Virus record (IMG/VR): IMGVR_UViG_3300028025_000163
Coordinates: 1-20,018 of that record
Strand: one strand, 5' to 3'
Length of the DNA: 20,018 nt
Source: a virus
The notes below the pieces were generated by a model. The model searched no databases. It was given only the letters and a program-made list of their open reading frames with translations, and was not told the DNA's origin. The translations under genes were made by a program, and so were the position numbers. Shown here piece after piece: positions 12,989-19,742 of this stretch (its first letter is position 1; the number at the start of each line of letters is the position of its first letter).

Positions 12989-12989
12989 A

Positions 12990-13082
12990 ATGAAAGATTG
13001 GCTGTTTGCGATCATTGCAGCAGTCAGTATTACTGTCTTTGTGGCCTTTTGTAGCTACATAATAATTTGGGCGTATCCGTGA
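12990..13082 (+). CDS. Tiny 30-residue membrane protein
   Basis: ATG at 12990, one base after the TAA of the transglycosylase gene, runs to TGA at 13080-13082. The product has a charged start (MKDW), one continuous hydrophobic helix (about residues 5-28) with one Cys, and ends WAYP. It overlaps the next gene by four bases (GTGA), so it sits in an unbroken chain of coupled genes, which is the main reason to accept so short a frame. It could be a small holin-like or lysis-modulating peptide; function is unknown. The ribosome binding site is weak, so reinitiation from the upstream gene is likely. Confidence 0.6.
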   Translation: MKDWLFAIIAAVSITVFVAFCSYIIIWAYP

Positions 13083-13231
13083 AATGGATGCTAATGCTTT
13101 CAATGTTGTTTACATTGGTGGCATCAAGTAAAGATAAAACTGAATATAGATGTGTCAGGTGGGCTTGGACAGGTGATGTTTACAACCGAAAGGTAGTATG
13201 CCTTGAGTGGCAAAAGGTTGAGAAAAAATGA
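13079..13231 (+). CDS. Secreted 50-residue protein with paired Cys and Trp motif
   Basis: A GTG start at 13079 lies in a GTGA overlap with the previous stop, and the frame ends in an ATGA overlap with the next gene. Residues 1-17 form a signal-like segment (MKWMLMLSMLFTLVASS). The mature part holds YRCVRWAWTGDVYNRK then VVCLEWQKVEKK, with two Cys 16 residues apart that could make a disulfide in the periplasm. I recall this compact Cys-Trp pattern from short phage proteins encoded near lysis genes, but know no function. The frame is easily missed because of its length and GTG start. Coupling on both sides and the coherent signal-plus-mature layout support it. Confidence 0.7.
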   Translation: MKWMLMLSMLFTLVASSKDKTEYRCVRWAWTGDVYNRKVVCLEWQKVEKK

Positions 13232-17767: not shown

Positions 17768-17946
17768 CTCACTCTCCTTAAAGGTTCTTGATATTTCTCA
17801 GGTGGTGGTGGAAGCATTTTCTCTGAAGGTGGAGTCCATCCATGTTTTCTCCAAATAGCCTGGACATCCGAACCTGATTCCCATTTGAAATCTTTGTTTG
17901 GCATAGATGGATAACTGATCTTTGAATACGGGGGTTTTTCTATCAT
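17764..17946 (-). CDS. Small conserved phage protein
   Basis: A 60-residue protein with many Pro and Lys residues. The middle reads WESGSDVQAIWRKHGWTPPSE, a pattern I recall from short phage proteins encoded near replication genes, without a known function. It overlaps both neighbours by four bases (ATGA at each end), so it is part of a coupled minus-strand chain between the winged-helix protein and the MazG-like enzyme. No Cys, membrane segment or catalytic motif is seen. Confidence 0.65.
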   Translation of the reverse strand: MIEKPPYSKISYPSMPNKDFKWESGSDVQAIWRKHGWTPPSEKMLPPPPEKYQEPLRRVR

Positions 17947-18284
17947 TTAATTGCTTTCAAAACACGTTGAGAATGGCCTGTAGAAGCCTTGCGTCTTTCG
18001 CCTGTGTCTTCTATAAGACCCTTGCGAAGTAGCGGTGCAAATCGTGGACTAATTGTTTGTACTCCATGATTGGGGAAGTGAGACATAACTTCCTCTGCAA
18101 TACACCCGTCAGGATGCTTGGCTATAACTTCATAGACCTGTTGCTCAAGTGTTGTTGAGTCAACCTTCTCAGCAGCATCCATGCTTGTATCTGGATCTGT
18201 GGTCCTGACCATCATCTTTGGCTCTGAACCAAAGAGTCTGTTAAAGGTATCTTTAAAATACACGCTCGTTAGTAAACTCATCAT
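17943..18284 (-). CDS. Winged-helix DNA-binding-like phage protein
   Basis: A 112- or 113-residue protein. AGGAG on the minus strand is spaced six bases from the ATG at 18281 and three from the one at 18284, so the second ATG is likelier. From residue about 26 the sequence reads VRTTDPDTSMDAAEKVDS, then LEQQVYEVIAKHPDGCIAEEV, then ISPRFAPLLRKGLIEDTGERR: a linker, recognition-type helices and a wing, as in a common phage family with a MarR- or PadR-like winged helix. It could regulate phage or host transcription, or act in replication. A structured spacer precedes it (see 18300-18355). Confidence 0.75.
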   Translation of the reverse strand: MMSLLTSVYFKDTFNRLFGSEPKMMVRTTDPDTSMDAAEKVDSTTLEQQVYEVIAKHPDGCIAEEVMSHFPNHGVQTISPRFAPLLRKGLIEDTGERRKASTGHSQRVLKAIK

Positions 18285-18299
18285 TAACTCCTATTAGGT

Positions 18300-18355
18300 G
18301 AGGGGAAAACTGCTCGTCTGCAAGCTAGGAAAATCCTTTGCACAGCTCTCCCCTC
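18300..18355 (-). other. Structured intergenic element with nested stems
   Basis: The 85-base gap between the SSB-like and winged-helix genes holds two nested inverted repeats. The outer stem pairs GAGGGGA (18300-18306) with TCCCCTC (18349-18355). The inner stem pairs TGCAA (18319-18323) with TTGCA (18338-18342), and inside it AGGA (18327-18330) with TCCT (18334-18337) around an AAA loop, leaving a three-base bulge. On the minus strand the structure lies about 14 bases after the SSB-like stop and nine bases before the AGGAG of the winged-helix gene. It could be an attenuator, processing site or small RNA. No T-tract follows, so simple termination is doubtful. Confidence 0.5.
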
Positions 18356-18369
18356 GGGTTTATATTAAC

Positions 18370-18609
18370 TTAAAAAGGCAGGTCCATGTCATCAAACCCC
18401 GAACTTTTTGGACTTGATTTTTGAGGAGCTTGTTGCTCTTTGGGTGAGAGGGCTAGTCCCATGAACTTGCCGCCCTTACCTTCTTTAATCCATGCAGATA
18501 GCCAGAAATCCTGACCATTTACTGTGATGTTCCCCTTGTAATCAGGGTGTTTTTCTGATTCTTTTTTATCGTTTTTAAATAAAACACCTGAGTTATCACG
18601 CTTTTCCAT
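18370..18609 (-). CDS. Small ssDNA-binding-like protein with acidic tip
   Basis: A 79-residue protein from ATG 18609 (minus strand); AAAGG lies five bases upstream, whereas the ATG at 18624 lies inside the previous gene without a site. The sequence has a compact beta pattern: [29 protein letters not shown], then [14 protein letters not shown] flexible Gln/Ser/Lys linker leads to the C-terminal tip DDMDLPF. Single-strand DNA-binding proteins use such an acidic tip ending in Phe to recruit partner enzymes, so an SSB-like role in replication or recombination is likely, though the domain is shorter than a standard OB fold. It starts one base after the ERF stop. Confidence 0.6.
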
Positions 18610-18610
18610 A

Positions 18611-19228
18611 TTAACCTTTCGCATTCTTTAATGCACTTCTTACTTTACTAGGAAGCAAAGTCCATAGAGCGACTTTTTGTTCGCTATCTAGGTTCTCTGA
18701 TTCCAACTTTACCCAAGCTGTCTTAGGTTCTTCCTTCTCACAGATAGCAATTAATTCCATTGCTAACTCTCTGAGATAATTCTGCTCATCTTCTGGGATG
18801 CTATCCATTGCACCTTGTGTTGGCGTAATCACAGGGGCTTGCTTCTCTTCTCTTACTGGAGGAGAGGAATCTAGCGCATCATGCTCAACAATTTCCATTG
18901 CTGAAACCCAAAGATACCGCCTGGTATACGTTTCTACCGCACCAAGGTTTTGGATTGGATGCGCTCCTTTAAGGTTTGCCTCCACCATTGGGCTAGTAAT
19001 TGTTATTTGTGAGTTGTCTTCAATATCAACAATCGTCAATGTTGCAATTGTTGGATCAAAAGAAATGTACCCACATAATCCAACTTGATGAAAAATCTCT
19101 TGTACTTGAGGAAGAAAATCACCAAGTTCAAAATAGTAATAGCCAGCAAATTTATTGTGACCAGTTTTCTTTAACTCTGTATTCTGCAAACGGATACGAG
19201 CATTCATTAACTTACTGTGGACTGACAT
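18611..19228 (-). CDS. erf: ERF-family single-strand annealing recombinase
   Basis: A 205-residue protein. Residues 25-40 ([16 protein letters not shown]), 84-96 ([14 protein letters not shown]) and 97-107 ([11 protein letters not shown]), followed by EIVEHDALD, follow the order of the ERF superfamily, whose members anneal complementary single strands in phage recombination. The part after residue 120 is a linker rich in Pro, Glu and Lys and then a small helical domain (about 145-205). The next gene encodes an SSB-like protein, a common partnership. The start ATG 19228 overlaps the homing endonuclease gene by 17 bases, and a GAAAGG about ten bases upstream on the minus strand may serve as ribosome binding site. 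Confidence 0.85.
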
Positions 19229-19706
19229 AAATTATCGCCTTTCTTTCATTTAAATACGCCTGTTGAGCATCTTCTATATTTTCAAACAAACCGAGATACT
19301 TTCTCTGTTTGTAGATGCAAATATGGGCTTGCCATTTCTTTGCTTTTTTGTGCCAACTCACTCCAAGCATTTGAGTCTTGCTTCTTGAGTGTGCTGACAA
19401 CTTGTTTTGTGCATTAGATATTTGCGTTACATCTCTTAAATTATCAATTCTGTTGTCTTGTTTGTTTCCATTGATATGGTCAATCTCACCTTTTGGGAAG
19501 ACTTTATGGCAATAAAGCCAAGCAAGACGATGTGCATAGAATGATTTACCAAGAACTGTTATCCGCAAATAACCAAAGCCATTATCAGTACCTAGATTTA
19601 CACCTGTTTTAATTCCTCTGCGTTTTTTCTTCCATTGAAAATGACCAGTTTCCTTGTCGTAATCAAGAAGCGTAACTACATCATCATGTGTTAACAAAGT
19701 GTCCAT
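19212..19706 (-). CDS. HNH homing endonuclease with AP2 DNA-binding domain
   Basis: A 164-residue protein from ATG 19706 (minus strand), chosen because GAGG lies five bases upstream; an ATG at 19742 would add 12 residues that read through a hairpin. Residues 20-63 form a beta region ending AHRLAW (His59). DHINGN at 76-81 with NRIDNLR following is the HNH metal finger. Residues 114-157 (LGVSWHKKAKKWQAHI, then YLGLFENIEDAQQAYL) form an AP2 domain. Such HNH-AP2 proteins are free-standing mobile endonucleases of phages that nick or cut DNA and spread their own gene. It lies inside the recombination operon between a Cys-rich gene and erf, which fits an insertion. Confidence 0.88.
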   Translation of the reverse strand: MDTLLTHDDVVTLLDYDKETGHFQWKKKRRGIKTGVNLGTDNGFGYLRITVLGKSFYAHRLAWLYCHKVFPKGEIDHINGNKQDNRIDNLRDVTQISNAQNKLSAHSRSKTQMLGVSWHKKAKKWQAHICIYKQRKYLGLFENIEDAQQAYLNERKAIIYVSPQ

Positions 19707-19715
19707 CTTATCCTC

Positions 19716-19735
19716 ATAGGTTGCTGACAACCTAT
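19716..19735 (-). promoter_or_regulatory. Hairpin abutting the homing endonuclease ribosome binding site
   Basis: ATAGGTTG (19716-19723) and CAACCTAT (19728-19735) form a perfect 8-bp stem with a four-base loop. On the minus strand the GAGGA of the endonuclease gene begins directly after the 3' arm (19715-19711). A TATAAT on the minus strand (19739-19734) overlaps the 5' arm by two bases; the best -35 for it is poor. The layout could reduce translation from long transcripts and allow it from a local one. Confidence 0.5.
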
Positions 19736-19742
19736 TATACAC

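Follow-up and report, generated by a model that had tools for sequence, protein, structure and literature searches.

REP/BIME elements, other intercistronic stabilizing hairpins, and T7 RNase III sites lie on the sense strand just past a stop codon within an operon, and such hairpins and sites can give neighboring genes different mRNA levels. In phage T4, the autoregulatory leader of gene 32 is a 5′ pseudoknot that is read by gp32. By analogy, the phage RNA element described here may be set beside both. It likewise lies on the sense strand just past a stop codon in an operon, where the mRNA levels of its neighbors could differ, and with the gene 32 leader it would share RNA-level control linked to a phage single-stranded-DNA-binding protein (SSB). 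However, unlike REP/BIME and T7 RNase III sites, it belongs to a phage-borne family with a conserved bulged-G core and a closing stem (P1) that is mostly 4 to 5 bp, and it sits 3′ of the genes of several unrelated SSBs instead of in a 5′ leader. The closest published analogies appear to be the STAXI motif and the L17 downstream element (Weinberg 2010, PMC2864571). STAXI, a candidate structured element, is found near genes for SSB and other DNA-handling proteins, but it is formed of tandem pseudoknots with UUCG loops (PMC2864571); the element described here forms one bulged stem. The L17 downstream element is a conserved RNA that follows a gene, in a 3′ UTR position; however, that gene encodes a ribosomal protein and is found in Lactobacillales and Listeria (PMC2864571), and the present element has no Rfam match.

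Intercistronic and UTR RNA elements are already known as a kind. The family itself is apparently undescribed, and no description of it was found in the open-licence literature. When we compared the element with Rfam 15, which includes STAXI, nothing matched at the gathering threshold, and the sole hit, sau-5971, was at chance level (E = 2); a canonical copy of the family had no match even at relaxed thresholds. A search of five loci with Rfam returned only int-alpA, located elsewhere than the element. This int-alpA RNA (RF02996) occurs in element-bearing phages above its gathering score at L012:383-449 (minus strand) and below it at L022:3784-3859 and L037:3776-3849 (both minus strand). The conserved pieces of the element seem to come in a different order from those of hammerhead, hairpin, twister, and pistol ribozymes and of the glutamine riboswitch, which are thus unlikely matches.

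The window, meaning the whole stretch of DNA that was analyzed, is a virus record of 20,018 bases. The first-pass annotation had drawn attention to a nested-stem element on its minus strand, ahead of a putative winged-helix gene. The features of this site, in minus-strand order, are as follows.

18611..19228, minus strand: gene for an ERF-family ssDNA annealing protein in the same operon (PF04404, phrog_155)
18370..18612, minus strand: upstream gene, SSB-like, 80 amino acids, C-terminal end FDDMDLPF (phrog_18154 single strand DNA binding protein, E = 3e-15)
18300..18355, minus strand: RNA element, with a bulged stem inside an outer helix (from its fold and a near-identical interior in loop-E-bearing relatives)
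18350..18355, minus strand: P1 5′ arm, GAGGGG (sequence; relative to the window, A-U becomes G-C and G-C becomes G·U in L001/L004)
18347..18349, minus strand: AGA, which stands where the bulged-G motif would have GAA(A), on its 5′ side (GAAA in relatives; AGA/UUU becomes AGG/CUU in L087, L093, and L149)
18343..18346, minus strand: P2 5′ arm, GCUG (100% paired; both-side changes in three of four pairs)
18327..18341, minus strand: apical hairpin, GCAA AGGA UUU UCCU, with UUGC at 18320-18323 pairing with GCAA (fold; partial covariation)
18314..18319, minus strand: conserved 3′ bulge AGACGA, equivalent to the family GACG(A/C)A motif (comparison with family copies)
18309..18312, minus strand: P2 3′ arm, CAGU (17-sequence subgroup alignment)
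18306..18308, minus strand: UUU, which stands where the bulged-G motif would have AGUA, on its 3′ side (comparison of relatives)
18300..18305, minus strand: P1 3′ arm, CCCCUC (sequence; covariation)
18288..18292, minus strand: AGGAG, Shine-Dalgarno-like, for the downstream gene and outside the stem (sequence)
17943..18284, minus strand: downstream gene, phrog_1123 protein (E = 6e-10), putatively winged helix according to the first-pass annotation

The G+C-rich 7-bp stem around a second bulged stem that had been noted within 18298-18356 is real, and its outer helix is longer than claimed. The hairpin occupies 18300-18355, and its outer helix comprises 14 bp (18355-18342 with 18300-18313): seven G+C-rich pairs at the base (18355-18349 with 18300-18306), from which the helix runs on through G·U, A-U, G·U, C-G, U-A, G-C, and U·G. 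Inside it lie the 3′ bulge AGACGA (18319-18314) and an inner stem, GCAA/UUGC (18341-18338 with 18320-18323), followed by an AGC bulge and AGGA/UCCU closing a UUU loop. Folded alone, 18300-18355 reached -29.2 kcal/mol versus -16.4 ± 2.6 for shuffled sequences (z = -4.92), and none of 200 shuffles was as good; with 48 nt more context, z was -2.41, with 4 of 200 shuffles as good. As described, the element is on the minus strand, in the 85 nt that separate the stop codon of the SSB-like gene (18370) from the start of the putative winged-helix gene (18284), 14 nt from the former and 15 nt from the latter, and precedes the AGGAG at 18292-18288. That it is not an intrinsic terminator also held: no T run lies 3′ of the stem, where the next letters are ACCTAATAGGAG, and the hairpin is absent from the list produced by a terminator scan of the window. 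Promoter-like matches at the site were at chance level, and no terminator-like alternative fold was found in the window. The claim that this is the longest noncoding gap in the window fared less well, as the plus-strand stretch 12989-13227, which holds only ORFs of <60 amino acids, may be longer. An HNH endonuclease gene (PF13392, weak AP2; 19212-19742, minus strand) lies directly upstream of the ERF gene, and in several relatives HNH-type genes are also near the SSB and phrog_1123 genes.

Comparison with other phages indicates that the window hairpin is a divergent member of a large RNA family found in phages. This family first came to light as pieces that recur ahead of the phrog_1123 gene in relatives; scanning viral contigs for exact patterns gave at least 120, 49, and at least 120 stretches. 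Its layout is a closing stem P1, GAA(A) opposite AGUA, a short P2, a core that is often GCGGAUGC...GACGCAGC, and a variable apical cassette, so written in the usual copy as P1 - GAAA - GC GGAUGC - cassette - GACGCA GC G - AGUA - P1′; most members have a P1 of only 4 to 5 bp. GAA against AGUA between two stems reads as the signature of the bulged-G (sarcin-ricin, loop E) module, which is present in most members, is absent from the window copy, and is a building block, not a function. A scanner that asked for P1 pairing, GAAA, AGUA, and two pairs of P2 gave 322 matches in the loci versus 8 in reversed sequences, a ratio that speaks to specificity and not to abundance because many of the loci were fetched with such patterns.

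It is nearly certain that this is a genuine structured RNA family. In 128 distinct exact-core copies among the matches listed, the four inner P1 positions were paired in 93 to 99% versus 51 to 80% after shuffling and used GC, CG, AU, UA, and GU pairs. Covariation was found in P1, P2, and P3: in a 32-sequence alignment, 10 of 11 pairs had changes on both sides, none of 500 shuffles matched this, and sliding the alignment destroyed the signal. Across a nonredundant set of 39 copies whose interior was left free, pairs 2 and 4 of P2 exceeded all 1,000 shuffles, pair 1 was weaker (17 of 1,000 shuffles as high), and pair 3 was G·A in most copies. Additionally, G·U outnumbered A·C by 40 to 9 in the variable stems and by 13 to 0 in P2, and this excess means that selection acts on the sense-strand RNA.

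The window copy departs from this layout in one respect. Its clade has AGA/UUU instead of GAAA/AGUA, that is, a continuous helix in place of loop E inside P1, and its interior is near-identical to that of relatives with the bulged-G motif. Because these orthologs keep GAAA/AGUA around near-identical interiors, the window copy is best read as a derived homologue and not as a canonical member. It retains P1 as the 14-bp helix, both arms of which change in orthologs, P2 as GCUG/CAGU, and the GACG(A/C)A bulge as AGACGA. The best window match of the R1 covariance model was 18300-18356, at 10.9 bits and an E value of 0.32 that is not significant alone. The first-pass annotation had proposed covariation analysis in related phages as a check, with arms that change without compensation as the result that would speak against the element. 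We looked for such changes, and the arm changes present in relatives were compensating ones: within the window clade, both the AGA/UUU-to-AGG/CUU exchange and the A-U-to-G-C changes in P1 are compensatory, and the P2 pairing listed above holds across a 17-sequence alignment of the window subgroup.

The place of the element relative to genes is also conserved. A same-strand ORF ended no more than 60 nt upstream in 204 of the 225 pattern-derived copies listed; among these copies, the stop codon was mostly 5 to 8 nt before P1, the next start codon mostly 10 to 25 nt after the element, and the upstream genes fell into 44 clusters. The 239 downstream genes listed formed 82 clusters. Upstream families recognized by HMM were phrog_18154, phrog_112/PF10991, phrog_44, DUF669/phrog_6015, RecT, and a Gam-like family, so that ssDNA-binding proteins of at least four unrelated families are represented besides RecT and the Gam-like family. 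An SSB-type acidic C-terminal tail was present in 66 of the 204 upstream proteins listed versus 41 of 5,250 background frames, where the 66 are not independent events because the copies share ancestry. Two unrelated SSB genes occur in one contig, each with a copy after it. The tie to SSB genes is not absolute, and many upstream genes encode no known SSB. In five relatives (L011, L034, L100, L110, and L141) a gene or extra sequence separates the SSB gene from the element, which keeps its place beside the downstream gene; only L143 has the reverse arrangement. Predicted folds of two uncharacterized upstream families gave no PDB match at E < 0.001; the 327-amino-acid one of the two gave only weak matches, to the phiC31 recombination directionality factor and to OB-fold proteins. 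Among the commonest upstream neighbors are L162:1131-2111 (minus strand) and its homologues of about 320 amino acids (phrog_27714, function unknown), for which a low-confidence model weakly resembles the same phiC31 factor.

The family is common in environmental phages. When 40 virus records were searched from end to end, the model matched 38 of them, mostly with one copy each; a few phages have two, with tandem pairs in L131, L389, and L391. A BLAST search of deposited phages gave two convincing copies, both in assembled Manatee Spring phage records, besides other, weak hits. Among about 85,000 genomes of bacteria and archaea, only 3 contained the exact core pattern, and the model matched 2 of 399 genomes of one order; on these counts, an origin as a host gene was rejected.

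Phages also provide natural replacements of the element. In five close relatives (L118, L133, L139, L146, and L147), the whole element is swapped for a plain hairpin, GGGGGCUUAGUCCCCC, with a GGGGG/CCCCC stem, and the flanks are near-identical to those of element-bearing relatives. In these phages the plain hairpin GGGGGCTTAGTCCCCC directly follows the SSB stop codon, and the contigs of the four tested (L118, L133, L146, and L139) contained no other model match. Together with the helix that replaces loop E in the window clade, these swaps suggest that a stable structure at the site matters more than the exact fold. The apical cassette can likewise be reduced, to a bare GAAA tetraloop in L124 and L138.

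Transcription of the element, any effect on mRNA decay, processing, or translation, and a factor that would read it are inferred from these comparisons; the element probably affects the cutting, protection, or translation of its message. The first-pass annotation had listed an attenuator, an RNase processing site, an autoregulatory protein-binding site, and a small RNA as options. A usually single copy per phage, an intergenic place on the sense strand, near-absence from bacterial genomes, and the replaceability of both loop E and, in five contigs, the whole element favor processing, stability, or insulation over an attenuator or a specific protein operator. The reading that we prefer, and hold tentatively, is thus a mainly structural intercistronic role, in which the element would bear on the stability or processing of the mRNA or insulate ssb from the gene that follows. 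The element would be transcribed within the replication/recombination operon and would fold between the upstream stop codon, most often that of an ssDNA-binding protein gene, and the next ribosome-binding site. There it would form a compact, cis-acting structural block that most likely shields or sets the 3′ end of the upstream part of the mRNA or keeps the decay or translation of the two genes separate. The level of SSB, a protein that phages require in bulk, could thereby differ from that of the product of the gene behind it. However, a deeply conserved core with a bulged-G motif exceeds the needs of a mere barrier and suggests a specific partner, five relatives with an insertion after the SSB gene keep the element beside the downstream gene, many upstream genes are not known SSBs, and the phages with the plain hairpin could represent a single lineage in which a deletion left a scar.

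In the main rival, possible if somewhat doubtful, a protein- or ligand-bound 5′ leader would control translation of the downstream gene, with the bulged-G module and the GACGAA bulge binding a conserved host or phage factor. Conservation of non-Watson-Crick motifs and not just of stems, a position 10 to 25 nt before the start codon, and retention beside the downstream gene despite gene insertions would fit such a leader, but the downstream genes are diverse, close relatives lose the module or have a plain helix or hairpin in its place, and the Shine-Dalgarno site is outside the stem. An autoregulatory operator read by the upstream SSB itself, as gp32 does in T4, would account for the strong association with SSB genes and for the contig with a copy after each of two; we consider it quite improbable, as other genes precede some of the copies, the T4 operator lies 5′ of its gene and this element 3′, and SSBs of at least four unrelated families are unlikely to read one RNA fold. 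The cassette, which varies within the same flanks and recurs between phages, and the tandem pairs in a few phages led us to consider a released small RNA or decoy whose cassette reads a host target, an unlikely explanation given that no terminator was seen at the site, that promoter-like matches there did not exceed chance, and that a bare tetraloop can stand in for the cassette. HK022 put is an RNA that acts in antitermination. A comparable action on RNA polymerase, or attenuation, would suit a usually single compact RNA inside a replication operon; it is very unlikely, however, with no terminator-like alternative in the window and the element inside the operon, not near its start. Location in the replication module would also agree with a DNA feature such as a hairpin for replication or recombination, but G·U far above A·C on the sense strand and the location of copies on the strand that encodes their flanking genes render this highly implausible. 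Stimulation of stop-codon readthrough was considered and rejected, as the open-frame extension past the stop (median, 22 codons) was about that expected by chance.

The family combines strong covariation, a fixed intergenic place, and association with SSB genes of several unrelated families. It would allow a clear test of the way in which phages set the amount of SSB, and the natural swap-outs (helix, plain hairpin, and tetraloop) already suggest which parts matter. In a broader proposal that we regard as doubtful, it would be a new class of phage RNA in which a conserved core (P1, bulged-G, P2, and the GACGAA bulge) with exchangeable cassettes docks on a single conserved host factor, to which expression of the ssDNA-binding-protein operon would be tied, hence its being common to unrelated phages. 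The apical cassette is not constant even where phages have the same flanks, and some cassettes are found again in other phages. The conserved cassette CAGCCAAGTGATTTAGTTCAT recurs within the element of L129, L034, and L427, and CTTCACATA and GTCAAGGATAGA recur too, as if cassettes had been exchanged. In L325 and L393, a variant-looking hairpin, AGGGGGAAAGCGGATTTTACTGTTCGGCATATGCCCCCAC, stands right after an ORF ending in DEEIPF, and a canonical copy is present elsewhere in the locus.
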